From a virus, in IMG/VR virus record IMGVR_UViG_3300022074_000296, positions 1 to 27,492 of that record: 27,492 bases of DNA; one strand, written 5' to 3'. Under the pieces are notes generated by a model that saw nothing but the letters and a program-made list of their open reading frames with translations, did no database searches and was not told where the DNA came from. Shown piece by piece: positions 1 through 25,148 of the stretch; position 1 is the first letter of the stretch; the number at the start of each line of letters is the position of its first letter. The translations under genes were made by a program, and so were the position numbers.

Positions 1-1098
1 GTAGCCGGACGCTTTCTGACAACGTGAGTAACCACAATGCGTTGCTGCGTAGACTACGCGAGAATGGCAATCAAACGTCTGTGACGGGACGTGATATTGT
101 CCGTGAACTTGAGTATGCCGACAATGGAACTGTGCAGTTCTATTCAGGCTATGAGACACTAGATGTCTCACCCTCAGATGTGCTTACCAGCGCCGTTTAC
201 GAATACAAGCAACTGGCTGGAAACGTTACAATTTCTGGCTTGGAGCAAGTCAAAAACTCTGGTGAGCAAGCCATCATCAATCTGCTTGAGGCACGCATCA
301 ATGTGCTTGAAAAGTCGATGATGAACAGCCTTTCAACCTCGATCTATTCTGACGGTAAAGAAGTGTGCCTAGCAGCCTAGTAATAGGTTGCCGAAACTCC
401 CTTAAATTCAGGGAAGGCTTTAAAATGCTAATCCTGAGCCAAGCCCCGTAAGGGGAAGGTGCAGAGACTTGACAGGGGATGCCCGACCATTCAGTTGAGG
501 GCAAAGGTAAAGTCCAGACCACAAACAGCGCAAGCTGGCGGCGAAAGCCGTAGTTGGTAAGACAGGATCGAGTGGTAAAGAGGTGGGCGGTCTTCAGCTA
601 CTGGTTGCCGATTCCGGCACAGGTACTGTTGGCGGCATCAACTCCAGCACATTTACGTTTTTCCAAAATGTGCAAACCACTGCAACGTCATCGGCGTTCA
701 GCACCTCAAACGTGCAAGATGATATGAACAATATCTATCTCCAGCTTGTTCGTGGTGCAGACAGCCCTGATCTGATCATGGCTGGTACAAACGCCTACAA
801 GGCATTTCTGGGTAGCCTTCAGGCTATCCAGCGCATCACCAGTGATGATCTGGCAAACTCTGGTTTCACCAGTGTCCAGTATCTGAACAGCGATGTGGTC
901 TTTGATTCCGCATGTAACACCAACAGAATGTATTTCCTGAACACTGACTATCTCCGTCTTGAGGTAGCAGCGTCACGGGATTTCGTTCCAGGTGAAGCAA
1001 AGATGTCAGTCAACCAAGACGCAATGGTGACGCCAATGTTCTGGTCAGGAAATCTGACCTGTTCAAACCGCGCTCTCCAAGGCGTGATCCATACATAA
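1..1098 (+). CDS. Major capsid protein, 5'-truncated by the window edge and interrupted by a group I intron (join 3..356, 562..1098)
   Basis: This encodes the subunit of the virion head shell. The frame is open from base 3, so the true start lies left of the window. Exon 1 (3-356, 118 codons) ends ...NSLSTSIYSDG. Exon 2 (562-1098, 178 residues) begins TGSSGKEVGGLQLLVADSG and ends in ...GNLTCSNRALQGVIHT, a C-terminus typical of this phage capsid family as I remember it. The halves are in different frames. Removing 205 nt (1 mod 3) joins them without a stop and gives the continuous segment IYSDG-TGSSGKEVGG. Without splicing, translation stops at 378-380 after eight intron codons, giving a truncated capsid protein. 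The following gene, with a strong AAGGAG site, is a probable decoration protein. The family call is by eye and fairly sure; the exact splice points are inferred from intron rules and frame. Confidence 0.85.
357..561 (+). ncRNA. Group I self-splicing intron in the capsid gene
   Basis: The sequence shows the conserved core in order: P-like TTCAGGGAA (407-415), Q-like AATCCTGAGCCAAGCC (430-445), R-like GTGCAGAGACTT (460-471 region) and S-like AAGGTAAAGTCC (504-515 region). P7 pairs GACTT (466-470) with AAGTC (510-514), and P8 pairs GCCC (481-484) with GGGC (499-502). GNRA-type loops cap hairpins at 376-387 (GTAA), the P6-side CCCC/GGGG hairpin near 444-455 (GTAA), 526-537 (GCAA) and 539-550 (GAAA). 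An internal guide TTGCCG (388-393) pairs with exon CGGT plus AA across the 5' splice site, putting the G-U pair at U356-G390. The last intron base is G561, as required. The core strongly resembles the small cyanobacterial tRNA-Leu introns (IC3-like). No endonuclease ORF is present. Confidence 0.93.
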
Positions 1099-2782: not shown

Positions 2783-4326
2783 TGCTGCAAGCGCTGCCAA
2801 CTTCCAGAGGCTACCGCGTCAAGGCGGTCAGCGTGCCAGCCCCTGTGGGTGGTCTGAACAGCCGTGACAGCATTGATGCAATGGCACCGACTGACGCACT
2901 GATCATGTCCAACTTTTTCCCGACTGTGGAGAAAGTCACCCTGCGCGACGGATACACCAGTTTTTGTACAGGGATCGGCACCGGCAATGTTGAAACACTG
3001 GTGGAACACAATGCTGGTGCGAACCGGCAGCTTTTGGCAATCGGCAGCAACGGCACGCTGTACCAGATTGACAGCGGGACAGCCGTCAGCAAGAAAACCG
3101 GCCTTGCCAACGGCAGGGCAGAAAGCATTGAGTTCAACAACCACACCATCTTTGTGCCGTCAGGGGCGAACGTGCCTTTTAGCTGGGACGGGTCGAGCGC
3201 CAGCGATTTGTCGATCACGCTGTCTGATAGCGTCAACGCCAACACGCTGACCGGCGTTCACGCGCACAAAAACCGCGTCTATTACTGGACTGGCACAAGC
3301 CAGAACTTTTACCACAGCGCCACTGTGGACACCTTTCAGGGCAACTTTACCAAGTTTCCCGTTGGTCTGGTCGGCACATTCGGCGGCAACATCATTATGA
3401 TCAACACGCTCACCATTGATGGCGGTGAGGGCGTTGATGACCTTCTGTGCATCATCATGACCAGCGGCGAGGTGCTGCTGTATTCAGGTTCTAACCCTGC
3501 CAGTGATTTTAGCCTGGTTGGTACGTTCCGCATTGCAGAGCCGATCAATGAGAAACGCGCCATTGCCAAGTTGGGCGGCGATGTAATCGTGATGACCAAA
3601 GAGGGCTATCTGCCTTTGAGCCAGGTCGTGCGCCAGGACATTGTGGGCAACAAGGCAGCAGCCATTTCAGAGAAAATCCGCGGCACCGTCATCAGTCAGG
3701 TCAAGGCCACCGGCACATCAACCGGCTGGCAAGTCTTTGTCAGCCCTGACGGCGACAAGGTGTATTTTAATTATCCGACTGGTGAGCCTGACCCGTTCAA
3801 TCAGCATGTCTTCAACCCCATCATCCGCGCCTGGTGCATCTTTGAGAATCTGCCAGCCCATGTCTGGGGCCAGTTTAACGGCGATACATTTTTTGGCAGC
3901 GCATCCGGCGTTGTATTCAAGGTGACTGGTGATGCTGATAATGGCGAAAACATTGTTGGTGATTTGGCTACGGCTTACAACTATTTCGGCGACAGAGGCG
4001 GTGTGAAGCGCTTTAGCAGCGTGCAGCCAATGCTTGAGGGTGAAACAGACGTTGATTTCAGTTTCGGCGTGGGCGTCGATCAAACGCCTGTCGCGACCAT
4101 TGATGTCTCGCCGGTTACATTTCAGTCAAATCTGGCGGCGTGGGATACCGCCACCTATGACGACTTTTTCTGGGCTGACACGGCTGGCGCTGGCGTTACC
4201 AAGCGGCGCAAGGCGGTCAACCGGCTAGGCTACTCCAGTGCATTGCGGATCAAGGTTGCAACCAGCACGCAGACAATCTCGTTCATCAGCGCTCACTATA
4301 CATTCGCACCAGGAGGGCCACTCTAA
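2782..4326 (+). CDS. Tail hub / packaged-DNA stabilisation protein (tail tubular B or gp10-like)
   Basis: This is a 514-residue protein. The opening PAPVGGLNSRDSIDAMAPTD followed by FPTVEKVTLRDGYT is the characteristic start of podovirus tail proteins that fold as beta-propellers around the DNA exit channel (T7 gp12 or P22 gp10 type). Repeated beta blades follow, for example ANRQLLAIGSNGTLYQID, GGNIIMINTLTIDGGEGVDDLL and TSGEVLLYSGSNP. The end is a fibronectin/jelly-like beta segment (FISAHYTFAPGG). The ATG at 2782 overlaps the adaptor stop by one base, so I chose it even though the conserved part begins about 18 residues in. The next gene starts on its stop codon. Confidence 0.78.
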   Translation: MLQALPTSRGYRVKAVSVPAPVGGLNSRDSIDAMAPTDALIMSNFFPTVEKVTLRDGYTSFCTGIGTGNVETLVEHNAGANRQLLAIGSNGTLYQIDSGTAVSKKTGLANGRAESIEFNNHTIFVPSGANVPFSWDGSSASDLSITLSDSVNANTLTGVHAHKNRVYYWTGTSQNFYHSATVDTFQGNFTKFPVGLVGTFGGNIIMINTLTIDGGEGVDDLLCIIMTSGEVLLYSGSNPASDFSLVGTFRIAEPINEKRAIAKLGGDVIVMTKEGYLPLSQVVRQDIVGNKAAAISEKIRGTVISQVKATGTSTGWQVFVSPDGDKVYFNYPTGEPDPFNQHVFNPIIRAWCIFENLPAHVWGQFNGDTFFGSASGVVFKVTGDADNGENIVGDLATAYNYFGDRGGVKRFSSVQPMLEGETDVDFSFGVGVDQTPVATIDVSPVTFQSNLAAWDTATYDDFFWADTAGAGVTKRRKAVNRLGYSSALRIKVATSTQTISFISAHYTFAPGGPL

Positions 4327-15667: not shown

Positions 15668-16915
15668 ATGCGTGATTTAAAAGTGCGTTTTAGGCAGTCA
15701 AGGCAGTGTTGGGTCATTAACGCAACTAGGGTGGGTTTGAGTAATACACACGGCGGCTTCCGCACAAAACCTGAAGCAGAGGCAGAGGCAGAAAAACTGA
15801 AAGCGCAGTTTGTTCTTGGCCAAGATGTTGAGGCTCAAGCCAAGCCGAAATTGTTTTCAGTCCGTGACGCGCTCAACGAATACCAAGCCAACCAGGCGTT
15901 GCTTCAAACCAAGTCATATTTTGAGGCACAAAAGTTCAATCTTGGATTGTTGGCCGCTGTCAAATTCAAAGGAGTTGCAGTCGGCAAACATCAAATGGAA
16001 CGGCTGGGCCGAAAGTTAGAGCGTGAAGATTTTAGAACGTGCATTCAATTAGCCATAAAGAATGAAGGTAAAAGCGTTGAGACAATGCAAACCCGCCGCA
16101 AGCATTGGTCAAAGTTTTTCAAGTTTGCGGCGGGCAAAGGATGGATCGACGCCAATCCGATTGAAGACATCCAGTTGCCCAAGCCCAGCAAAAAAGATGT
16201 GCGCGCGCCCAAAGTGCAGCCCGGTTTTATTGCTTGGCTGCAAACTGACGCGCTAGACGCGCACGCTGCCGCTTTCAAAAAAGCCGCAGAAAAAAAGTTC
16301 AAACACGGTCAACGAAATCATCTGACGATCAGTCCAGCAAAGCTGGAATTGATGATCTTGTTGTCGATCACCACTGGCCTGCGTCAGGGTGAGTTGCGTG
16401 CGTTGCGCCGCTGCGATTATTCCCCCAACAGGCAAATCATTTCAATTAGTGGTGGTATAGATCACGGCACACAAACGATTGGCCGCGCCAAGACGGAAGA
16501 GGGGCAGGATCGCGACATTGAGGTGCCGCCAGCAGTCTGTGCAATGCTGGACGATTTGCTTCAGAAAAGCAGGTTTCAAAAGTTTGATGATCTGGTCTTT
16601 CCGTCCACGACAGGCACGCCACTACGCAAAAACGATTTTTGTAATGCGATTAAGCCCATGCGTGCAGCTTGCCCTTATAAGGATGAAGAAACAGGCAAGC
16701 CGCTGCATTTCTTGTGGGCAGACATGCGCCACGCATTTGCCAGCAACATGATCAACCAGCTTGGTGCCAACTGGGTTGATGTGTCGGAATCCATGGGGCA
16801 CACCAATCCAGAGTTCACCAAGCGGCGTTACGGCCATTACATCGAAGATGAAGAAAAAAGCCAGCGCAAACGCGATGCGGCTGGCGCGGTGTTGGTAAAC
16901 AGAAAGGGGCGCTAG
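15668..16915 (+). CDS. int: Tyrosine-family integrase
   Basis: This 415-residue site-specific recombinase integrates the phage at the tRNA-Glu gene. An N-terminal arm-binding region (1-60) is followed by a core-binding helical domain (about 65-165) and the catalytic domain (about 220-400). Visible catalytic residues are Arg239 (TTGLRQGELRAL), Lys275 (GRAKTEEG), Arg354 (ADMRHAFAS), His378 (SMGHTNP) and the nucleophile Tyr388 (KRRYGHY). The box II histidine expected three residues before Arg354 is Ala351, an unusual substitution. The ATG at 15668 has AAGGGG seven bases upstream. The stop codon lies in the loop of a terminator hairpin that also contains the stop of the opposing gene. Confidence 0.95.
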   Translation: MRDLKVRFRQSRQCWVINATRVGLSNTHGGFRTKPEAEAEAEKLKAQFVLGQDVEAQAKPKLFSVRDALNEYQANQALLQTKSYFEAQKFNLGLLAAVKFKGVAVGKHQMERLGRKLEREDFRTCIQLAIKNEGKSVETMQTRRKHWSKFFKFAAGKGWIDANPIEDIQLPKPSKKDVRAPKVQPGFIAWLQTDALDAHAAAFKKAAEKKFKHGQRNHLTISPAKLELMILLSITTGLRQGELRALRRCDYSPNRQIISISGGIDHGTQTIGRAKTEEGQDRDIEVPPAVCAMLDDLLQKSRFQKFDDLVFPSTTGTPLRKNDFCNAIKPMRAACPYKDEETGKPLHFLWADMRHAFASNMINQLGANWVDVSESMGHTNPEFTKRRYGHYIEDEEKSQRKRDAAGAVLVNRKGR

Positions 16916-16924
16916 TGCGCCCCT
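16905..16924. terminator. Shared terminator hairpin with both stop codons in the loop
   Basis: A perfect 8-bp stem AGGGGCGC (16905-16912) pairs with GCGCCCCT (16917-16924) around TAGT. The loop holds the integrase TAG (16913-16915), and the opposite-strand TAG of the 52-residue gene lies at 16912-16914. The T-rich tract (TTTCTGTTT) follows on the minus strand, so it mainly ends the leftward operon. Confidence 0.8.
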
Positions 16925-17070
16925 CTCACAACGTCCCAGATTCTTTGCACCCAGTTTCTGGGCGGCGGCTCAATGCTCGCCGCTTGGAGTTTAGCTGCCC
17001 ATATGCGTTTCATGACCTTACTCTGCGCGGCACGCTTTTCAGGCGTCCATGCTGCTTTGTGTTTGTTCAT
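16912..17070 (-). CDS. Small basic protein at the end of the lysogeny operon (52 residues)
   Basis: The minus-strand ATG at 17068-17070 is preceded by AGGTGGG. The protein is MNKHKAAWTPEKRAAQSKVM followed by KRIWAAKLQAASIEPPPRNW and VQRIWDVVRGAH. The WTPEKRAAQS..MK..WA.K pattern is common in small phage proteins that resemble NUMOD/HTH-like basic peptides, so nucleic-acid binding is possible. It overlaps the excisionase-like gene by 32 bases and the integrase stop by three bases. It is the last gene of the leftward operon and convergent with integrase. Confidence 0.75.
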   Translation of the reverse strand: MNKHKAAWTPEKRAAQSKVMKRIWAAKLQAASIEPPPRNWVQRIWDVVRGAH

Positions 17071-17251
17071 CAATCCCACCTAATTTCACAATTTCGGCAC
17101 GCGGTATGAACCACCGTGAACCATCTTGAATGGCCTTGATCTGGCCGTCTTGTATCCAGCGCCTGACGCGCTTGCGACTAGCCTCGCTATAGCCTTCACC
17201 AAACAGGGCGTCACACGCTTCCCTGACCGTCAGTAGAGCGTTAGTAGCCAT
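17039..17251 (-). CDS. Excisionase-like DNA-binding protein (HTH_17/MerR-type)
   Basis: This 70-residue protein starts at ATG 17249-17251. It has a winged-helix pattern: LLTVREACDALFGEGYSEASRKRVRRWIQDGQIKAIQDGSRWFIPRAEIVKL. The central R-R-W-I-x-x-G-x-I-x-A...G-x-R-W-x-I-P-x-x-E is typical of HTH_17 excisionase and small recombination-directionality factors. It lies close to integrase and the attachment site, so controlling excision is likely; a transcription regulator role is the alternative. An extended start upstream would add a His-rich stretch that belongs to the neighbouring gene read in another frame. Confidence 0.72.
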   Translation of the reverse strand: MATNALLTVREACDALFGEGYSEASRKRVRRWIQDGQIKAIQDGSRWFIPRAEIVKLGGIDEQTQSSMDA

Positions 17252-17609
17252 TCTTTGCAGCCTCATAACCAGGTGGTGGTGGCGGTGCATCAGGCACGCT
17301 TGTATGGGGCGGTGGTGGTGGTGGCGGTGCATGAGCCGGTGCCGGTGCTGGTGCTTGCTGCGCTGGTGCGCCGTCATTGAGCCACAGGCGTGACCGGCAG
17401 ACCCGGTGGTAGGTGTCCCCCACCTTGACCTGTAGTTCCAGCCCAGGCTGCTGCTTATAGTCTTCTTTGTTGGCCTGATAGTAGGCATCCAGACGGGCCT
17501 TCAAGTCTGGGTCAGTGATATTAAACCAAAAGCTGATGCTAAAATTGTCGTCAATCTCGACGCCTCGCACCAACTGAACCTTGCCAGCCTTGTATTCAGG
17601 TTGTGCCAT
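17241..17609 (-). CDS. Hypothetical protein with Pro-rich tail, next to ERF
   Basis: This is a 122-residue protein from ATG 17607-17609. The N-terminal domain (about 1-82) is compact and beta-rich: MAQPEYKAGKVQLVRG, FSISFWFNITDPDLKARLDAYYQANKEDYKQQPGLELQVKVGDTYHRVCRSRLWLND. The tail from residue 83 is a disordered Ala/Pro run (APAQQAPAPAPAHAPPPPPPPHTS). A small folded domain plus flexible tail beside an annealing protein recalls a single-strand-binding accessory factor, but no OB-fold signature is certain. The start overlaps the ERF gene end by 14 bases. Confidence 0.65.
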   Translation of the reverse strand: MAQPEYKAGKVQLVRGVEIDDNFSISFWFNITDPDLKARLDAYYQANKEDYKQQPGLELQVKVGDTYHRVCRSRLWLNDGAPAQQAPAPAPAHAPPPPPPPHTSVPDAPPPPPGYEAAKNGY

Positions 17610-18192
17610 TTTCGATGTCCTTTTCCTGTTTTTTCCAGAACGCATAAAAGCGGTTGTAGTCGTTGGCATTAGCCTTGTGCATGTCAGTCAGCACAGGGTT
17701 CATCTCACCGATCCACGCATTTAGGCCGGTAAGTGATTTGAATGTTTTGATTTTGGTTTCGAGGGCTTCCAGGTCGTAAGACTTTTTGGGCGGGTCTTTC
17801 AACCCACCGTTCACCTGTCCGTCGTCATCGTCGTCAAATTCAACCTCTTGGATGCCAGCCGCCAGGCCCAGCGCTGCCATTAAGGCGTAACGCCGTGCGT
17901 AACTGATGGCCGATCCAAGTTTCTGATTGTTGGTCATGTCATCGACAGCGATAGGGTAACGCCCGATTTTTTCGTCACCGCTGGTGTGCATGATGTACGT
18001 TTTAAGGTGCATCCCTATGCCGTCTTCATAATCCACCAACTGGCTGAACGACAGGCCGTGTTGTGCCGCCTCTTTCACCTTGGTCATCACAGAGCCAACA
18101 CTAGCGTATTGTGATCTGTTGCTGGTCTTGTCCAATTCAAGCCCCGTCTGTGCGGCCTGAAACGTCGCCAGCGCTTTCGCCAACTCACTCAT
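17596..18192 (-). CDS. erf: ERF-family single-strand annealing recombinase
   Basis: This 198-residue protein anneals complementary single strands during phage recombination and genome circularisation. The family signature is clear: GSAISYARRYALMAALGL at about residues 93-110, preceded by NRSQYASVGSVMTKVKEAAQHGLSFSQLVDYEDG. An acidic linker (EFDDDDDG) separates it from a helical C-terminal part. The PD-(D/E)XK exonuclease is encoded upstream in the same leftward operon, giving a complete exonuclease plus annealase pair. The ATG at 18190-18192 directly abuts the stop of the DGQHR gene. Confidence 0.9.
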   Translation of the reverse strand: MSELAKALATFQAAQTGLELDKTSNRSQYASVGSVMTKVKEAAQHGLSFSQLVDYEDGIGMHLKTYIMHTSGDEKIGRYPIAVDDMTNNQKLGSAISYARRYALMAALGLAAGIQEVEFDDDDDGQVNGGLKDPPKKSYDLEALETKIKTFKSLTGLNAWIGEMNPVLTDMHKANANDYNRFYAFWKKQEKDIENGTT

Positions 18193-19062
18193 TTAGAACG
18201 CCACCATTTTGTCATTCATGCTGACGGTGATGTCAGCTTTGGTAGACGCCTTGTTGACCTTAAAATTGTAAAACGCACGGCTTAACAGCACGCTGTAGTG
18301 ATGCGCTGTAAGATGGAATGCAGCATCTATCCGCATGCGGTTTACGTTTTCTAAAAGGTATGGGACCGGCGCACGGGCCTTTGTGCCAATGCCTTTGCAC
18401 ATATGATCCAAAAACTGGGTGATTTGCTCCCGCTGACCCTTTTGCACGGCAACGTAAAAAAACGCCCCAATAATGCCAACACGCCATTTTGTCGTTGTGT
18501 ATAATTTACGGCCGACTGCAACAGATTCCTGCAACAGTGCGTGATCAATTTCCGAATTATACTTTTCTTTGATCCAATCGTTTGACACACCGGCATTTGG
18601 TGATCTGGAATGCCCGTGTTCGTAAGAAATGATCATTTTGATGGTGGTTGATGCGTCTTTTGCATTTGGCACGCCCATCATTGCCAGCGTGTCAGAGCCG
18701 TTGCGTAATTTGCCGATATCTATGTGCTGGAATGTTTCTGGGTCAATGCCAAACACCAAATGGGTTGCAAACGCTGTGTTTGCTCTGACGCAAGCCTCTA
18801 ACCTGTGCTGGCCATCTTTTAGCAGGCCGTCTGACCCAAACTTGATTGTTTCACCATTCAGGGTCCAGTTTTTTTTCACCATGTCTTTTGAATAATCGAC
18901 CACCTTACGAGAAGTAATTGGCCGATTTTTCTTGTTGGTTTCACCCAAAGTGAACTTGGCCATTTCTGGAGTGATCTTGTGAATCACACTGCCTTTCGGC
19001 GGGTGCAAAATGTGGTTCCGGAAACTCGTTTCGGTCAAATTTTCAATTGCGGCTGTAGCCAT
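18193..19062 (-). CDS. DGQHR / ParB-like domain protein
   Basis: This 289-residue protein starts at ATG 19060-19062, with AGGGAG six bases before it; a 14-residue upstream extension is possible but lacks a good ribosome site. The core motif is TSRKVVDYSKDMVKKNWTLNGETIKFGSDGLLKDGQHRLEACVRANT, where LLKDGQHRLEA is the hallmark of the ParB/sulfiredoxin-like DGQHR family, followed by VFGIDPETFQHIDIGKLR. Phage members are widespread but their job is unknown. In this recombination operon a DNA-associated role is the simplest guess. Confidence 0.75.
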   Translation of the reverse strand: MATAAIENLTETSFRNHILHPPKGSVIHKITPEMAKFTLGETNKKNRPITSRKVVDYSKDMVKKNWTLNGETIKFGSDGLLKDGQHRLEACVRANTAFATHLVFGIDPETFQHIDIGKLRNGSDTLAMMGVPNAKDASTTIKMIISYEHGHSRSPNAGVSNDWIKEKYNSEIDHALLQESVAVGRKLYTTTKWRVGIIGAFFYVAVQKGQREQITQFLDHMCKGIGTKARAPVPYLLENVNRMRIDAAFHLTAHHYSVLLSRAFYNFKVNKASTKADITVSMNDKMVAF

Positions 19063-19399
19063 CAGTATCTCCCTCGACTGATCTAGTGTTGAATAGCCCG
19101 TCATGGGCCGGGTTGTTTTTCATCCACAGCCGCGCATAGTACGGCTTGTGATGATCGTTAATCTTGAGCGCTTCACCATCTGGCCTAGCGTCAATGATGT
19201 TGATTGTGGTTTCCCAGCGGATGCGTTCCATAATCATTTGTGAGCCAACGCGCTTGTGGCCCTTGGCAATCGCCTCACGGGTGAAGCGATCCCAAAGCTG
19301 GTAGACCATCGGGTTGGCCTGATGAAACGATAGAAACCGTGCTTCACGCTCGTTACGCGGTGCCTGCATGGCCTCAAACAGCGTGGGCTGGGCGTTCAT
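19043..19399 (-). CDS. Conserved hypothetical phage protein
   Basis: This 118-residue protein begins MNAQPTLFEAMQAPRNEREA. It contains LWDRFTREAIAKGHKRVGSQMIMERIRWETTINI and LKINDHHKPYYARLWMKNNPAHDGLFNTR. The LNDHHxPYYARLWMxxNPxHxGFFxTR pattern is known to me from many phage and prophage recombination regions and has no assigned function. The protein is soluble and basic. The start overlaps the upstream stop (ATGA) and the end overlaps the DGQHR gene by 20 bases. Confidence 0.75.
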   Translation of the reverse strand: MNAQPTLFEAMQAPRNEREARFLSFHQANPMVYQLWDRFTREAIAKGHKRVGSQMIMERIRWETTINIIDARPDGEALKINDHHKPYYARLWMKNNPAHDGLFNTRSVEGDTDGYSRN

Positions 19400-19563
19400 G
19401 TCATCACCAGGTCAAGCAGCACGATGAAGCACCACAGGCTGAAGACAGCAAATAATGAGCCGATGACGATGCCGCACACGCGCAAGGCTTCACGCCATGC
19501 ACTGTAGGGCCGCAGTGGTCGGCCTGCTTCATCAACGTGAAGCCACAACAGGTTTCGTCTCAT
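19396..19563 (-). CDS. Small single-pass membrane protein
   Basis: The ATG at 19561-19563 overlaps the exonuclease stop (ATGA), giving a 55-residue protein: MRRNLLWLHVDEAGRPLRPY then SAWREALRV and a hydrophobic helix at about residues 30-53 (CGIVIGSLFAVFSLWCFIVLLDL). It probably sits in the inner membrane with a short cytoplasmic N-terminus. Small membrane proteins in lysogeny operons may act in superinfection exclusion, but nothing in the sequence proves that. A start four codons upstream is possible. Confidence 0.6.
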   Translation of the reverse strand: MRRNLLWLHVDEAGRPLRPYSAWREALRVCGIVIGSLFAVFSLWCFIVLLDLVMT

Positions 19564-20480
19564 TTGAACCCCCATAGTTTTTTTGCCTCTGTCAGAACCT
19601 CTGGGCGCATATCCCACGCCCACATATGTGCGAAATCTGGTTCAATCAGGCGCAGCATTTGCTCCACCGAATCGGCAGATTTCAGGATGTTTTCGCGGAT
19701 CGCGCACTTGGCTGTGATGTGATTGAGGGCAGCTTGCAGCCCCTCATTGGTCAGCCTGTCGCTGTTGTCAGCGTTGAAGACGCGGAAATCTTTGGCATTG
19801 GCATACACGATGGTCTGCATCAGGCCGGTGCCAGCCCAGTAGCCTGCGACCTGGCTTGTATGTGACCAGTCGGGCTGTGTGGGCAGGCTGGCAGCACGCT
19901 TGCCAGACTTGGTGTTTGCAGCAGCGCTAGACCATTTTGTTTTGAGTTCAATGCGGCGCGAAAAGTCAGGGAATCCTGAGTAGGGCAGTTCCAAACCGGA
20001 CAAGTTGGTGAAGATTTCAGATTCACCGTCAATGCGGTTGAGGCCATACAGGGCGTGCGCTTCTTTGACGCCTTCAATTGCGTTGGTCAGCACATCGGCA
20101 AACTCTGCGCGGTTGACCGCCAGCTTGCGCTCGTCCTTGCCATCATCCCAGGTGCGCGGCTGGTATTCATCCAGGCGGCTCATACCCTGCCGGATCACAG
20201 CCTCAATGGTGTGGCCGTCAATCAGGTGAAGGTTGGCGCAGTCCTGTACGACACGCCCTGCCAGCATGTTGGCATTGTCATCTTTATATAGGTTAACAGT
20301 AGCTTTGGCGGCGTCTGTGTCGCCGACTTTATCGCCTTTTATGACCGCCCAGGCTTGGGACACCTTGGGACGGATCACGCACTTTTCAAATAATGTCCGG
20401 CAGATTGGACGCGATGCCGGATTGCTGTGGTGGAAATAGTGCTTGTCAGCAGCCCATTTGATGGACGGTGGTAGCGACAT
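19560..20480 (-). CDS. PD-(D/E)XK exonuclease (RecE/YqaJ-like)
   Basis: This 306-residue protein is the likely 5'-3' exonuclease partner of ERF. The nuclease motif is clear: GFPDFSRRIELKTKW with Asp172, Glu178 and Lys180, followed by Gln210 and Tyr214 in SQVAGYWA, as in RecE- and lambda-exonuclease-type nucleases. The N-terminal half has a conserved-looking WAADKHYFHHSNPASRP and the region around residue 74-100 (LAGRVVQDCANLHLIDG). It starts 7 bases after a GAGG site and is separated from the repressor by an AT-rich promoter region. The stop overlaps the next gene. Confidence 0.85.
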   Translation of the reverse strand: MSLPPSIKWAADKHYFHHSNPASRPICRTLFEKCVIRPKVSQAWAVIKGDKVGDTDAAKATVNLYKDDNANMLAGRVVQDCANLHLIDGHTIEAVIRQGMSRLDEYQPRTWDDGKDERKLAVNRAEFADVLTNAIEGVKEAHALYGLNRIDGESEIFTNLSGLELPYSGFPDFSRRIELKTKWSSAAANTKSGKRAASLPTQPDWSHTSQVAGYWAGTGLMQTIVYANAKDFRVFNADNSDRLTNEGLQAALNHITAKCAIRENILKSADSVEQMLRLIEPDFAHMWAWDMRPEVLTEAKKLWGFK

Positions 20481-20513
20481 AAAAAAACCTCAACAGAAAT
20501 AGCTTCCTGCCAA

Positions 20514-20542
20514 GGTTTAAGTCCTTTTACTTATTCCGTCAA
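20514..20542 (-). promoter_or_regulatory. Leftward promoter before the exonuclease operon
   Basis: On the minus strand TTGACG (20537-20542), a 17-bp spacer and TAAACC (20514-20519) precede the exonuclease start. The -10 is weak. The direct repeat TTACTTATT at 20527-20535 (inside the promoter) and 20570-20578 could be a regulator site. The region is strikingly AT-rich. Confidence 0.5.
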
Positions 20543-20569
20543 TATACTTTTTTTATTTAGTACTTAAAA

Positions 20570-21355
20570 TTACTTATTAGAACCCAACATTTTATTACGA
20601 TAGCTCGTCACATCATAGTCAACCCACTGCATTTCGCGCAGTTCTGGGCGTATTATCATTGTGACAATCGGACAGCCCCATTCGAGTTCAAGGTTTGTGT
20701 ACGTGCCGAAATTGTTGCTTTCAAGTGAATATCGGTTTCTTCCAGTTTGATAAACGACACCGTAAAGCAAATGTTGGTTTGTTGTTTTCACGATGCTGTA
20801 GTGGCCAAGACATTCCTTGTCCACCACCCCGCGTTGCATCGGATCAATGTTGACGATATCAAGGTTGCCGTTCATCCAAGCTGATGGATGGTCAAGATCA
20901 TCTGTCATGTTCCAGTACACGCACATGGTGTCGTGCAAATAGTAGTCGTGCATATATATTGCTTTGTTTTGATAGGGTGACATGCGCTCCATATGACCAC
21001 CTGAATGACCCATCACTAATGTTGGATTTTTTCCATTGTTTGAGTTGATTAGGTGCGGTGCAATCTTTTTTGCTTTTTCACCACACTCTTCGTCCCACGG
21101 GAAAACGCAGGCCAGCACTGGGATGGGTGGGCTGGCAAAAAATATCTGTTGCGGTGTGCAGTTGAGGATTTTTGCATACTCTTCAGCGTCGCCAAGCGAT
21201 ATGCCAATATCGCCAGATTTATGGCGTGACAAGGTGGCAGGCTGGATGCCTTTAAGTTCGGCAACCATGTTATTTTTTAGGCCGCTGCGCCTAATCATCT
21301 TGTCCAAATTGTTTGGTGCCACTGGCCCAACGTCCTTCACTGAATAACCATTCAT
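20570..21355 (-). CDS. CI-like lysogeny repressor
   Basis: This 261-residue protein has an N-terminal helix-turn-helix (NNLDKMIRRSGLKNNMVAELKGIQPATLSRHKSGDIGISLGDAEEYAKILNCTPQQI, about 16-71) of the Cro/CI type. A larger C-terminal domain follows that resembles S24 peptidase-like repressor cores in length and beta content, with no clearly visible Ser/Lys pair; whether it self-cleaves cannot be told. It is transcribed away from the small Cro-like gene across a 106-bp region with an operator-like palindrome, so it is the switch repressor. A ribosome site AAGGTG precedes the ATG at 21353-21355. Confidence 0.85.
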   Translation of the reverse strand: MNGYSVKDVGPVAPNNLDKMIRRSGLKNNMVAELKGIQPATLSRHKSGDIGISLGDAEEYAKILNCTPQQIFFASPPIPVLACVFPWDEECGEKAKKIAPHLINSNNGKNPTLVMGHSGGHMERMSPYQNKAIYMHDYYLHDTMCVYWNMTDDLDHPSAWMNGNLDIVNIDPMQRGVVDKECLGHYSIVKTTNQHLLYGVVYQTGRNRYSLESNNFGTYTNLELEWGCPIVTMIIRPELREMQWVDYDVTSYRNKMLGSNK

Positions 21356-21390
21356 GATATCACCTTGTCGCTTTCAGTCAAACCTTTGAT

Positions 21391-21430
21391 ATAGGTAAGC
21401 CTATTGTCTTAATTGGTCAAGTCATATAAC
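21391..21430. promoter_or_regulatory. Divergent repressor/Cro switch region with operator
   Basis: The palindrome ATAGGTAAGCCTAT (21391-21404) lies over the -10 (21392-21397, TACCTA on the minus strand) of a leftward promoter whose -35 is TTGACC (minus strand, 21415-21420), spacer 17. It also touches the -35 TTGTCT (21404-21409) of a rightward promoter with TATAAC at 21425-21430 (spacer 15). One protein bound here could block both. Promoter calls are by eye. Confidence 0.55.
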
Positions 21431-21461
21431 TTCAGTACGAATATTTGGTACGGGTGACGTG

Positions 21462-21671
21462 ATGCAATTAAACGAATATCGACAAAGTAAGGGCTGGTCT
21501 TACAGCGAGTTGGCAAGGCTTGTAGGCGCTGCACACGCGACTGTGGTGCGCCGCTGGTGCCTGCCGGTTGGCCATGAACAGCGCTTGATACCTAAGGCCA
21601 GCAACATGCGTAAAATCGTGCAGCTAAGTGCTGGCGAAGTAACGCCCAACGACTTCTATCAAGATGACTGA
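21462..21671 (+). CDS. Cro-like small HTH protein
   Basis: This 69-residue protein takes the ATG at 21462; a GTG one codon upstream is possible. A helix-turn-helix spans residues 13-33 (SYSELARLVGAAHATVVRRW), followed by RLIPKASNMRKIVQLSAGEVTPNDFY, the usual end of phage Cro/CI N-terminal domains. It is the first gene rightward of the divergent switch region, in the position of Cro. Its end overlaps the VRR-NUC gene by eight bases, so it heads the early operon. Confidence 0.82.
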   Translation: MQLNEYRQSKGWSYSELARLVGAAHATVVRRWCLPVGHEQRLIPKASNMRKIVQLSAGEVTPNDFYQDD

Positions 21672-22080
21672 GGATGAACTGCAAACATATGTGGTTCATT
21701 GGCTTCAGGTGGCCCTGCCCCTGGGCAGTGTGTTTCATCACAGCCCGAATGAGGGCAAGCGCCACGTTAGCTACAAGATGCGCCTGAAGAAGCTGGGCAT
21801 GGCGGCTGGTTGGCCTGATCTGGAAATCTTTGTGCCTGACCACGGCTGGCGTGAACCGGCTGACCAAGGCCCGATCATGATTGAGTTGAAGCGCCCAAAG
21901 GGTGGCAGCTTGTCAGCCAATCAGAGAGACATCCAGGAACGACTGAAGTGTTGCGGCGTCTATTGCGTCACAGCAAAGCGCCTGGGGCATGTAGAGGCGT
22001 ATCTGAAGCCGTTGCTCAATCTGCGTGGCACCGGCCAGGCTGATGTGATCCGGCAGATGTGTGAGGCCGAAGGTGGCTAG
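21664..22080 (+). CDS. VRR-NUC family nuclease
   Basis: This 138-residue protein carries the signature of stand-alone phage VRR-NUC endonucleases: FHHSPNEGKR (25-33), GMAAGWPDLEIFV (with Asp52), IMIELKRPKGG (with Glu74 and Lys76) and LSANQRDIQERLKCCGVYCVTAK (with Gln87). Such enzymes of the PD-(D/E)XK superfamily act on branched DNA, including Holliday junctions, and may resolve replication intermediates before packaging. It is in the early operon between Cro and a zinc-binding protein. Confidence 0.9.
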   Translation: MTEDELQTYVVHWLQVALPLGSVFHHSPNEGKRHVSYKMRLKKLGMAAGWPDLEIFVPDHGWREPADQGPIMIELKRPKGGSLSANQRDIQERLKCCGVYCVTAKRLGHVEAYLKPLLNLRGTGQADVIRQMCEAEGG

Positions 22081-22306
22081 GGGCTTCAGTGAGATACCGC
22101 CGCGGATAGTTCGCATTTGCAGGACGCCCGGTCTATGGGAAGAACTGCCGGAGTGCAGCCATTGCGAGGGGCAGGGCGAGTGCGAGGTTGAATATGCGGT
22201 GCCTGACTATCGAACTGGCAGCGGGTTCATAGACACGCGGCACGGCGAATGCCCAGTATGCGAGGGCCGTGGCTATGTTGAGGCTGATGATGAAGACGAT
22301 GAGTAG
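22073..22306 (+). CDS. DnaJ-like zinc-binding protein
   Basis: This 77-residue protein is taken from GTG 22073, overlapping the nuclease stop; a GTG at 22061 would add four residues. Cys28-x-x-Cys31-x-G-x-G and Cys60-x-x-Cys63-x-G-x-G (CSHCEGQGECEV, CPVCEGRGYVE) form a zinc centre like one half of the DnaJ cysteine-rich domain. It ends in an acidic tail (EADDEDDE). Phage proteins of this kind are frequent near methyltransferases and replication genes; role unknown. The next start lies inside this gene. Confidence 0.75.
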   Translation: MARGFSEIPPRIVRICRTPGLWEELPECSHCEGQGECEVEYAVPDYRTGSGFIDTRHGECPVCEGRGYVEADDEDDE

Positions 22307-22871
22307 CGCCAGCCTGCAAGCCGGCATGAAGCTCATTGGCGTCAACGATCGCGGCGACCGGCAGAAGGATGACTTTTACGCCACGCCTGCCGCAAGCACA
22401 GAAGCCCTGCTTTCAGTTGAGAAGTTCAACGGCAGGATCTGGGAGCCGTGCTGTGGGCAGGGGCATATATCGGAAGTGTTGTCTGCTGCAGGCTACGAGG
22501 TGCAAAGCACAGATCTGGTTGATCGTGGCTATGGCACGCCTCGCGTTGATTTTTTGATGGAGACGCAGCGCTGCGAGAACATCGTGACCAACCCGCCCTA
22601 CGGCAAGCTGGCGCTGCCGATGGTGGCCCACGCCACGCAGTTGGCCAGCCGCAAGGTGGCCATGCTGTTGAAGTTGCAGTTTCTTGAAGGTGTAGAACGC
22701 AAAGCCTTCTTTGCTCACACGCCGCCGGCAAGAGTTCACGTTTTTTCAAGCCGGCAAAGCCTTATGAAAAATGGTGACGATTACAGCGACGGCCCAGGCG
22801 GCATGATGGCGCTGGCCTGGTTTGTTTGGGACAAGGGGCATGCCGGCGACACGGTGGTCAAATGGCTATGA
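22299..22871 (+). CDS. N6-adenine DNA methyltransferase-like protein
   Basis: This is a 190-residue protein from ATG 22299, eight bases inside the previous gene. The N-terminal DDFYATP (about 24-30) is a frequent start of phage adenine methyltransferases. Motif I is WEPCCGQGHISEVL (48-61) for S-adenosylmethionine binding, and motif IV is NPPY (98-101) for catalysis. It is short and lacks a clear target-recognition domain, as do many solitary phage enzymes. It probably protects phage DNA from host restriction or controls gene expression. The stop overlaps the next ATG (ATGA). Confidence 0.88.
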   Translation: MSSASLQAGMKLIGVNDRGDRQKDDFYATPAASTEALLSVEKFNGRIWEPCCGQGHISEVLSAAGYEVQSTDLVDRGYGTPRVDFLMETQRCENIVTNPPYGKLALPMVAHATQLASRKVAMLLKLQFLEGVERKAFFAHTPPARVHVFSSRQSLMKNGDDYSDGPGGMMALAWFVWDKGHAGDTVVKWL

Positions 22872-23242
22872 CCCGCACTGAAGCCCTGGCAGATGCAGAT
22901 CGTGAGATCAGCCGCCTGATCCAAGATGGGCGCGGTCTTTTCTATATTGCAGAATTGTATGGCGTGCCTGTCAGGCGTCACAGCAGTCGCTGGTTTGACA
23001 GCATAGACGGCAATCATTTGGCGTTGCCTGCATGGCTACAGGGCCAGCCAGGGACGCTGACACTAGGCTATCTGCAAGAGCAATTAGCCGATCAATTATC
23101 GGATGCACTTTGCGGGGATTGCGGGATGAAAAAACAAAAGAGCGACTACGTCGGACACGGACACCCCTATAGGGGTGTGTCCATGTCCGTCCGTAATTGT
23201 CGTGAAAGAATTGCTGACCAAAATCAGGACAACCGCAGATGA
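22868..23242 (+). CDS. Hypothetical early protein with internal DNA palindrome
   Basis: This 124-residue protein takes ATG 22868, overlapping the methyltransferase stop. The N-terminal helix (MTRTEALADADREISRLIQDGRG) and YIAELYGVPVRRHSSRWFDSIDG are reminiscent of a small HTH domain. The C-terminal part contains ALCGDCGMKKQKSDYVGHGHPYRGVSMSVRNCRERI with four cysteines. The DNA encoding residues about 96-107 is a long inverted repeat (see 23152-23189), so this end of the protein may be shaped by a DNA or RNA function. I do not recognise a family. Confidence 0.55.
   Translation: MTRTEALADADREISRLIQDGRGLFYIAELYGVPVRRHSSRWFDSIDGNHLALPAWLQGQPGTLTLGYLQEQLADQLSDALCGDCGMKKQKSDYVGHGHPYRGVSMSVRNCRERIADQNQDNRR
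23152..23189. repeat. Long palindrome inside the early operon
   Basis: The core ACACCCCTATAGGGGTGT (23161-23178) is a perfect 18-bp palindrome. The arms continue with CGGACACGG on the left and GTCCATGTCCG on the right, with one mismatch and a two-base bulge. It can form a strong hairpin or bind a dimeric protein. Confidence 0.85.
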
Positions 23243-23463
23243 TTGAGCAAGGTGATGGCCTGATGGCTAGGCGTGAGAAGCTGGGCCAGTGCGTGCGGTG
23301 CGCTGTAGCGATCAGCGAATCGGAGTGCAAAATCTGTGGTTTCAAGTCGGCGCGAAGCCGTCCGCGACAGCTAGCTTATGTTACTAAGCTAAGCCATGAC
23401 GCTAAGCCAGAAGGCTATCCAAGACATGAATTAAAAAGTGAAAACAAAAAAGGCCATGCTTGA
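23239..23463 (+). CDS. Zinc-ribbon-like small protein
   Basis: This 74-residue protein begins at ATG 23239, overlapping the previous stop. It has Cys18-x-x-Cys21 and Cys30-x-x-Cys33 (CVRCAVAISESECKICG), a compact four-cysteine zinc ribbon, followed by a basic tail (KSARSRPRQL). Small zinc ribbons like this often bind nucleic acid in phage early regions. Its stop codon lies in a hairpin that reads as a terminator on the opposite strand. Confidence 0.65.
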   Translation: MIEQGDGLMARREKLGQCVRCAVAISESECKICGFKSARSRPRQLAYVTKLSHDAKPEGYPRHELKSENKKGHA

Positions 23464-23474
23464 GAAGCATAGCC
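23441..23474 (-). terminator. Terminator-like hairpin facing against the early operon
   Basis: GGCCATGCTT (23452-23461) pairs with AAGCATAGCC (23465-23474), 9 of 10 bases. The A-rich run at 23441-23451 becomes a T run following the hairpin on the minus strand. No gene is visible on that strand here. Confidence 0.6.
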
Positions 23475-23498
23475 CTGCGCTAAGAGATAATTTTAACA

Positions 23499-23774
23499 AT
23501 GCCCGAAAATCCGTCAAGCACAAAATACGAAGCTGATAAAATTCAACACCTTATAAGCCGGACAGCGAAACACACAAATTTCAACTACAGGTGTGTCGCC
23601 GGCAAATTCAAGGCAGATAGGTGGGCAGTCAGGCAGGACAAGGTGTGGCGTCGATGCAGGGAAGACTGGTCTGTAGAGGCGTTTAAAGAAGCACGACAGC
23701 GATATTGGCGCATGAACCAGTTTCAACAGCGGCAGTTCATTGAACAGATGGAGAAGGCGCATGAGCGACGTTAA
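23499..23774 (+). CDS. Hypothetical basic early protein
   Basis: This 91-residue, Arg/Trp-rich protein starts at ATG 23499 after a 35-nt gap. It contains KYEADKIQHLISRTAKHTNFNYRCVAGKFKADRWAVRQDKVWRRC and ends FKEARQRYWRMNQFQQRQFIEQMEKAHERR. The pattern suggests a small helical nucleic-acid-binding protein, but I recognise no family. It overlaps the next gene's start by 14 bases. Confidence 0.55.
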   Translation: MPENPSSTKYEADKIQHLISRTAKHTNFNYRCVAGKFKADRWAVRQDKVWRRCREDWSVEAFKEARQRYWRMNQFQQRQFIEQMEKAHERR

Positions 23775-24168
23775 CGGACTACATGATCTGTTCCTAACAG
23801 CAGCCGAAACGGACAGGCGCATGCCGCCAGCCATGAGGAAGCAAAAGCTGTCGTCATGGCCAGACTATCCGCTGGACTGGCATGGCTATGGCTGGACGCA
23901 GGAAGGCGAGACAATTCTGAAGCCTACAAGCAGACAGATCACAGATTATGATCGGGCCATGCAGTTGACGGTGCTGATGAATGAGGATGACCGCAAGCTG
24001 GTCTGGGCTGTCGCTCACAGTGCTGCATTCAAGGCAAGAGGTGCGCCGTGGACGCGCCTTGCCAGGATGTTGCAGCTAGGGACGGATGGCAGGGTGGTAA
24101 AGCGCAGATACATGGATGCGCTGGTGCGGTTGCACTATCGCGCAAGGGCGTACAGATATCGCCTCTGA
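23761..24168 (+). CDS. DUF6362-like protein
   Basis: This is a 135-residue protein from ATG 23761, inside the previous gene. The N-terminal half resembles small phage early proteins (RMPPAMRKQKLSSWPDYPLDWHGYGW). The C-terminal half is LVWAVAHSAAFKARGAPWTRLARMLQLGTDGRVVKRRYMDALVRLHY, the recognisable DUF6362 pattern with a helix-turn-helix-like RGAPWTRLARML...RRYMDAL. A DNA-binding regulator or packaging accessory is plausible because it comes just before the terminase small subunit. It is followed directly by a terminator. Confidence 0.7.
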   Translation: MSDVNGLHDLFLTAAETDRRMPPAMRKQKLSSWPDYPLDWHGYGWTQEGETILKPTSRQITDYDRAMQLTVLMNEDDRKLVWAVAHSAAFKARGAPWTRLARMLQLGTDGRVVKRRYMDALVRLHYRARAYRYRL

Positions 24169-24169
24169 T

Positions 24170-24188
24170 GCAACCTGGTTGCTTTTTT
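24170..24188 (+). terminator. Intrinsic terminator ending the early operon
   Basis: A short GCAAC/GTTGC stem (24170-24174, 24178-24182) is followed by six T (24183-24188), two bases after the stop of the DUF6362-like gene. The stem is made of one copy of the GCAACC repeat that recurs downstream in both orientations. Confidence 0.8.
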
Positions 24189-24200
24189 GCGTTAAGGGTG

Positions 24201-24235
24201 TTGTCAACGGCACGAAATCTGGTATCGTTTCGATA
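24201..24235 (+). promoter_or_regulatory. Promoter before the packaging genes with overlapping operator-like palindrome
   Basis: TTGTCA (24201-24206), a 16-bp spacer and TATCGT (24223-24228) stand between the early terminator and the terminase small subunit. The -10 is part of the perfect inverted repeat TATCGTTTCGATA (24223-24235), so the promoter is probably regulated and may start late transcription. Confidence 0.55.
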
Positions 24236-24251
24236 TGCTGGCGCAAGATAT

Positions 24252-24288
24252 GGTTGCAAGGGTGCAACCTGACGCAACCAGCGCAACC
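24252..24288 (+). repeat. GCAACC repeats, upstream cluster
   Basis: GCAACC occurs at 24264, 24274 and 24283 and inverted (GGTTGC) at 24252, just before the terminase small-subunit gene. The spacing of the three direct copies is 10 and 9 bp, about one helical turn. Confidence 0.85.
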
Positions 24289-24302
24289 AATCAGGACATG
24301 AA

Positions 24303-24944
24303 ATGCGGAAGTATCAGCCAGCCCAGGTGGACTGGGCTGAGATAGAGCAACGCATCAAGGCTGGCGAGAGTTTCAACGCTGTGTCTAAGGATTACAGCGT
24401 GTCCAGGCAGGCCATACAGAAGCGGTGCCATAAGGAATGCTGGGTAGAGCATACGCCAGTGACAACCGCTGTGCGCCGCCAGTTGCGTAAGCGCAACCAG
24501 TTGCAACCAGATGTGCAACCAAGTGAGGTTGCATTGCAACCAGTGGCATCCATGCAACCGCAAGCTGTGGCAGAGCCAAGCGCTGCCGTAATGGCAAGAG
24601 ATGACAAGCAAGGCGCAGCACTAGAGCTGCTGCGGGATGGCGTGCCGCGTAAGCATGCAGCGCAAGGCGTGGGCGTGAGTGAAAGCACGCTACTGCGATG
24701 GATCAATGACGATGAAGGATTTGGCTCAGAGGTACGCGCAGCAGAAAGTGCTGCTGTCGCTCTCAGGGTGCGCCGGATCGGAAAAGCCGGTGAAAAGGAC
24801 TGGCGTGCCGATAGCTGGTATCTAGAACGCACACAGAGGGCTGAGTTCGGCTCTGACAGCCAGAAAGGTGGCGGCGTAGCGGTCCAGATCAACATCGAGC
24901 GTGGCGGCGATACAGAGGTGATTGACGTAACACCTGGCAGCTAA
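24303..24944 (+). CDS. terS: Terminase small subunit
   Basis: This 213-residue protein is the DNA-recognition subunit of the packaging motor. It has an N-terminal helix-turn-helix (SFNAVSKDYSVSRQAIQKRC, about 23-42), a repetitive QP-rich linker (about 66-87), a second helix-turn-helix-like block (GVPRKHAAQGVGVSESTLLRWIND, about 113-136) and a C-terminal oligomerisation part, DWRADSWYLERTQRAEFG, a typical terminase small-subunit ending. The position before a virion gene and a probable large terminase supports this. The linker is encoded by the GCAACC repeats at 24493-24559, so protein and DNA site may have co-evolved. A GGA site precedes the ATG. Confidence 0.83.
   Translation: MRKYQPAQVDWAEIEQRIKAGESFNAVSKDYSVSRQAIQKRCHKECWVEHTPVTTAVRRQLRKRNQLQPDVQPSEVALQPVASMQPQAVAEPSAAVMARDDKQGAALELLRDGVPRKHAAQGVGVSESTLLRWINDDEGFGSEVRAAESAAVALRVRRIGKAGEKDWRADSWYLERTQRAEFGSDSQKGGGVAVQINIERGGDTEVIDVTPGS
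24493..24559 (+). repeat. GCAACC repeats inside the terminase small-subunit gene
   Basis: GCAACC occurs at 24493, 24503, 24515, 24536 and 24554 and inverted at 24527. With the upstream cluster this makes ten copies within about 310 bp, against well under one expected by chance. Confidence 0.88.
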
Positions 24945-24945
24945 A

Positions 24946-24963
24946 CGTGACCAAACCGTGACC
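24946..24963 (-). repeat. Third paired GGTCACG repeat, after terS
   Basis: The minus strand carries GGTCACG at 24946-24952 and 24957-24963 with an 11-bp period, starting one base after the terminase stop. It matches the pairs flanking the attachment core but in inverted orientation and 9 kb away. Confidence 0.8.
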
Positions 24964-25148
24964 AGTGTATCTGGCTGCTGCCGCAAAGCGTTGTGGGCCT
25001 TGGACTGCAGCGCTGTGCGTTACCGCCTTGAACAGGCGGCACAGATTCTGACGGCCCCCGCGGCATGCCCCCAGGCCAGCCGTCGCGCGACGACGAAGGC
25101 GTTATGTAAACACGCCCGCTTCTACAAAATCACAGGGTTTCAGGTTGC
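24964..25148. other. GC-rich noncoding spacer between terS and the 776-residue ORF
   Basis: I see no convincing gene here. The centre is unusually GC-rich, with a perfect 12-bp palindrome CGTCGCGCGACG (25081-25092) and two C5 runs around 25054-25075. The last 50 bases return to average composition and hold a weak ribosome site (CAGG) before ATG 25149. It could be part of a cos or pac region or an insertion scar. Confidence 0.6.

Follow-up and report, generated by a model that had tools for sequence, protein, structure and literature searches.

A compact tRNA-type group I intron in a phage major capsid protein gene and its apparent spread among capsid gene sites

The question raised by this locus is what a 205-nt insert is doing in the middle of a phage major capsid protein (MCP) gene, and how it came to be there. 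When positions 3-356 of the window (the whole 27,492-nt stretch of viral DNA analysed here) are joined to 562-1098, a single frame results that encodes a 296-residue MCP fragment, which matches PHROG 9953 'major head protein' (E 8e-90) and, weakly, the Pfam model of the SU10 MCP; the gene downstream has a Pfam match to the SU10 adaptor. The full-length MCPs of relatives have 313 aa, and residue i of the window is MCP residue i+17, therefore the window begins inside the MCP gene. Its source is a temperate tailed phage whose contig was opened inside that gene. Most of the roughly 100 relatives fetched from IMG/VR are uninterrupted across codons 135/136, and when the joined protein is aligned to capsid homologues, as the first-pass annotation had advised, the junction falls in a region that is continuous in dozens of intronless relatives. 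At the DNA level a cut after 356 or after 357 gives identical joined DNA. A group I intron is preceded by a U and ends in a G, and since these rules leave one choice the junction is placed at 356/561. The intron had been put at 357-561, which proves exact to the base, and its excision restores the MCP frame. The features are as follows.

3-356, plus strand: MCP exon 1, codons 18-135 of the 313-aa MCP (from frame and relatives)
357-561, plus strand: 205-nt group I intron that lacks a reading frame as well as P7.1/P7.2 (from Rfam, relatives and covariation)
562-1098, plus strand: MCP exon 2 including the stop codon (from frame and relatives)
354-356, plus strand: exon strand of P1, GGU, with U356 at the 5' splice site (from pairing and comparison)
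364-369, plus strand: internal guide UGUGCC; 367-369 pairs with GGU (P1) and 364-366 with ACA of the 3' exon (P10)
354-356/367-369, plus strand: P1, with U356.G367 at the cut (from pairing and comparison)
562-564/364-366, plus strand: P10 (exons GGU^ACA against UGUGCC)
372-379/384-391, plus strand: P2 hairpin, GUAA loop, compensatory change in 7 of 8 pairs
398-403/474-479, plus strand: P3, compensatory change in 5 of 6 pairs
408-412/433-437, plus strand: P4 (covariation)
416-418/427-429, plus strand: P5 (covariation)
444-447/452-455, plus strand: P6a hairpin, GUAA loop (covariation)
466-470/510-514, plus strand: P7, enclosing the 3' strand of P3 (474-479) and P8 (covariation)
480-484/499-503, plus strand: P8 (covariation)
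526-529/534-537, plus strand: P9.1 hairpin, GCAA loop (covariation)
539-542/547-550, plus strand: P9.2 hairpin, GAAA loop (covariation)
561, plus strand: terminal G of the intron (from splice-junction analysis)

The covariance search that had been proposed gives one Rfam match in the entire window, RF00028 (Intron_gpI) at 310-532 with an E-value of 2.4e-11, and its 54.2 bits lie near the threshold of 50 bits. The match is correctly located, but the model's own P1 and 5' end, starting from 310, are in the wrong register and were set aside, as the internal guide sits at 364-369. The helices from P3 to P8 are all present together with P7, and the splice sites have what a group I intron needs, namely the guide with its U356.G367 pair, the terminal G561 and the ACA/UGU pairing of P10. 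The U-G pair and guide had already been noticed, and P10 can now be added to them. P1 has three exon pairs only. Four hairpins carry GNRA loops, in the order GUAA, GUAA, GCAA and GAAA. Three nucleotides separate P7 from P3, so the intron has no P7.1/P7.2, the hairpins that mark IA-type introns of the T4 td kind. The proposed structure (44 pairs in nine helices) was then compared over an alignment of 17 related introns, where 99.1% of the cells are paired and compensatory changes occur at 29 of the 44 pairs. The covariation score of 0.582 exceeds both the 0.187 +/- 0.014 of shuffled alignments and the 0.04-0.08 obtained with slid partners, which argues that the structure is real and not due to chance.

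The sequence evidence identifies 357-561 as a compact group I intron interrupting an MCP gene, as the first-pass annotation had it, and the assignment is carried by the Rfam match, the intronless relatives, the strong covariation and a second example at the same site. That example (L147) comes from another metagenome and its contig terminates within the intron. A chimeric contig as the source of the intron is ruled out by the agreement of the two independent metagenomes. Judged from its anatomy and covariation, the intron probably splices in the cell. U356 would pair with G367 of the guide and a guanosine would cut after 356; the freed exon would then attack behind G561 while P10 (ACA with UGU) keeps the 3' exon in place, and the product would be a capsid mRNA free of the interruption.

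As to what kind of intron this is, a core pattern (GAGCCAAGC..AAGGTGYANAGACTNGAC) was scanned in cellular genomes, and in a narrower form in viral contigs. Among the matches listed from cellular genomes, 108 of 119 sites lie within a tRNA found by ARAGORN (Leu, Arg, Met, Ser, Phe and others). The window intron resembles the IC3 introns of bacterial tRNA genes (Azoarcus tRNA-Ile, cyanobacterial tRNA-Leu) in its core sequence and in its size of about 200 nt; like them it has no P7.1/P7.2, and they too usually have no ORF. It differs from them in sitting in a protein-coding capsid gene, with a guide fitted to capsid exons, instead of a tRNA anticodon loop, and a tRNA search of the window found none. 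We therefore call it tRNA-type or IC3-like rather than IC3, a reservation about habitat and not about structure. The cyanobacterial tRNA-Leu introns had been named as its closest relatives, which is right as to kinship with small tRNA introns, given the core pattern and 76% identity over 170 nt to a Rhodobacterales tRNA-Phe intron (L225), but its nearest kin interrupt other phage capsid genes. The core pattern also occurs in two Pacearchaeota records (L152 and L160) whose neighbouring genes (KH/KRR1-like, TYW3) look archaeal; in L152 it is an Rfam group I intron of 83 bits inside a tRNA-Asn according to ARAGORN.

In viral contigs the narrower pattern gave at least 75 tRNA sites, at least 6 sites in the MCP family of the window (including L147, which an earlier scan had found) and at least 31 in a second, unrelated MCP family, that of the HTVC010P-type pelagiphages (Pfam Phage_capsid_2, E 1.5e-93); these last form 26 clusters at 97% identity. 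Twelve other viral sites appear among the matches listed, of which seven are tRNA-like by eye, most with a tRNA 3' half, and two are T7-type gp10 MCPs (Pfam Gp10A-like). The remaining three are an intron with an HNH-type frame in what looks by eye like an HK97-type MCP (L370), the N-terminal part of which had no match in a Pfam scan, another with an HNH-type ORF in a phosphoesterase gene (L272), and one that has no clear assignment (L349). Insertions in viral protein genes are thus, among the matches listed, in MCPs in about 40 of 41 cases, at about nine sites in four families, and this suggests that such elements hop preferentially between coat-protein genes. One Phage_capsid_2 MCP gene (L336) has two tRNA-type introns, at codons 91/92 and near 200.

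A tree of 194 cores over about 145 columns places the introns of the SU10-type MCPs in one clade (0.988) that adjoins a Phage_capsid_2 intron, L274 (0.951), and both lie within a clade of nine capsid introns (0.997) and then of 17 (0.911). In a subset analysed with IQ-TREE, SU10 plus L274 has a UFBoot of 99, and two cyanobacterial tRNA introns enter at the next node, inside the clade of SU10 and Phage_capsid_2 introns. The tree thus suggests that the MCP family of the window may have got its intron from Phage_capsid_2 MCP genes or from a source common to both. Across seven capsid sites the P10 part of the guide tracks the 3' exon of its own site (exon/guide ACA/UGU, AAA/UUU, AAG/CUU, GAGAU/AUCUU and AAU/AUU). 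Only 16 of 5040 permutations match this fit as well, though the two SU10 sites, being near copies of each other, do not count as independent cases.

Capsid genes are not, as the first-pass annotation would have it, a new home for group I introns. A group I-like intron in the MCP gene of mycobacteriophage LittleE is spliced in vivo, and a 156-bp part of it recurs at 98% in a tail gene of related phages (PMC3706429); the same paper cites a capsid intron in Tuc2009, and crAss-like phages of the Delta and Zeta groups have group I introns in the MCP, several per gene (PMC7886860). These are different elements from the one described here. The LittleE intron is 819 bp long with an endonuclease frame, its type is left unsettled in PMC3706429 and it lies in another MCP family, and the crAss-like introns were detected through endonuclease domains, are not described as tRNA-type and belong to phages of other hosts. 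Our search of the literature, mainly open-access papers, yielded no report of tRNA-type introns in capsid genes, nor any of the HTVC120P intron described below. As far as we have searched, what is new is the tRNA-type lineage in capsid genes and its move within one gene.

That move is seen when the intron is compared between two sites of the MCP gene, S1 at codons 59/60 and S2 at codons 135/136, the site of the window. The core-pattern search found an intron 98% identical to that of the window at S1, 76 codons upstream, in three relatives (L082, L083 and L084), and further S1 copies in L295 (93% identical) and L146 (92%). With such copies elsewhere in the gene and many relatives intronless, the element has the optional presence and ectopic sites of a mobile intron. 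The guide target ACGGT^ACAG is present at S1 as well as at S2, and what the two sites have in common is limited to some nine bases with the splice junction at their centre. Intron types also cross the sites, as the window intron (S2) groups with L082-L084 (S1) and L147 (S2) has the P4 variant of L146 (S1). In the core tree the S2 copies are nested among the S1 copies, and with two S2 copies only, this is a hint that the move may have gone from S1 to S2. Position +4 of the intron is G at codons 135/136 and C at 59/60, regardless of intron type. In the window, the exon-intron start at 354-365 (GGTAAAGAAGTG) resembles exon 2 at 572-583 (GGTAAAGAGGTG) in 11 of 12 letters.

The explanation that in our judgement very probably holds overall is that of an ORF-less, IC3-like intron in a temperate-phage MCP gene that splices, has spread among MCP genes and most likely passes between sites by reverse splicing. 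A lineage otherwise resident in tRNA genes would have spread among phage MCP genes and, within this gene, come to occupy two sites with GGU^ACA as their common guide target. Passage from one to the other would most likely start when the excised RNA reverse-splices into MCP mRNA and proceed by copying into DNA and recombination, while ordinary recombination, or else homing in trans, could carry the intron to the same site of other phages. That group I introns reach new places by reverse splicing is an old proposal, but instances in bacteria and phages are difficult to catch; here a single intron, 98% identical between two positions of the same gene and with one six-base guide target at both, makes the question testable. 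The process is reviewed in PMC3984707.

The strongest alternative, which we think rather unlikely, relies on DNA recombination only, with a free-standing or lost homing endonuclease cutting a short target common to S1 and S2 and the intron being copied in. An endonuclease that acts in trans and recognises ACGGTACAG could provide such a route, and two introns of the same type, L370 and L272, have HNH-type ORFs that might supply homing activity to the copies lacking one. At the Phage_capsid_2 site the intron is common to at least 24 phages, which suggests homing. However, the window intron, at 205 nt and with no ORF, carries no homing endonuclease of its own and none was recognised among the scanned proteins of the window, where the sole nuclease-like one is VRR-NUC/resolvase-like (21664-22080). 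The stretch shared by S1 and S2 is also just the guide target, a pattern easier to reconcile with RNA pairing than with a nuclease plus homologous repair.

Reverse splicing may also bear on the bias toward capsid genes, for which MCP mRNA as the most abundant late RNA would be a simple reason. Extended in this way, the tRNA-type lineage would be a specialist of MCP genes that reverse-splices into the most abundant late mRNA, within one gene, from one MCP family to another unrelated one and among differing kinds of phage, with abundance and not DNA homology setting the target. We hold this only tentatively and somewhat doubt it; if true, transcript abundance would decide where tRNA-type introns land.

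Another possibility is that splicing regulates head protein production rather than being neutral. Unspliced mRNA meets a stop at 378-380, so in principle splicing gates MCP synthesis, and the first-pass annotation went as far as to say that splicing would set the rate of head production. Nothing in our analysis shows such control. At least one intron is present in 10 of 80 contigs sampled by exon 2 alone, but the other 70 have none in the MCP gene, and the patchy, optional presence at many sites resembles a mobile element, which makes regulation very improbable. Least credible of all is a degenerate, unspliced intron in a broken capsid gene, for although the MCP is essential and usually uninterrupted in relatives, the core is intact with compensatory changes, the exons are 96-99% amino-acid identical to an intronless MCP, and L147 has the same arrangement, as do many phages at other sites, the cultured HTVC120P among them.

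The relatives of the window have further introns in the MCP gene, at codons 14, 158/159, about 290 and 293/294. These are group I introns with no ORF that share only 42-53% identity with the window intron and the close copies of it, and by inspection they have two extra hairpins between P7 and P3; they appear to be IA-like. In L146 (5124-6264) a single MCP gene holds three group I introns of two types, at codons 14, 59/60 and 158/159. An additional group I intron lies in the gene immediately downstream of the MCP in L060 (3529-3816).

Among the four unrelated capsid families in which relatives of the window intron turn up, one example comes from a cultured pelagiphage. In this Pelagibacter phage, HTVC120P (L383, MH598807), gp29 and gp30 are both annotated 'capsid protein', and the intron is the gap between them at 19616-19806 of MH598807. 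The uncultured Chosvirus record KT997847 (L384) has the same split capsid annotation, with the intron at 22101-22286. A second intron in the MCP region is found in KT997847 and in L281, that of L384 near the MCP end (3153-3333). Capsid genes of marine phages are in this way mis-annotated as two genes and may escape marker-gene surveys. No copy of the Phage_capsid_2 intron was found in annotated phage records, and a collection of about 85,000 genomes had no relative of the window MCP that would point to a cellular host or prophage. Toward the far end of the window (15668-27476) there are an integrase, an ERF annealing protein, a Cro/C1-type repressor, a methyltransferase and a terminase small subunit, a gene set that marks the phage as temperate.
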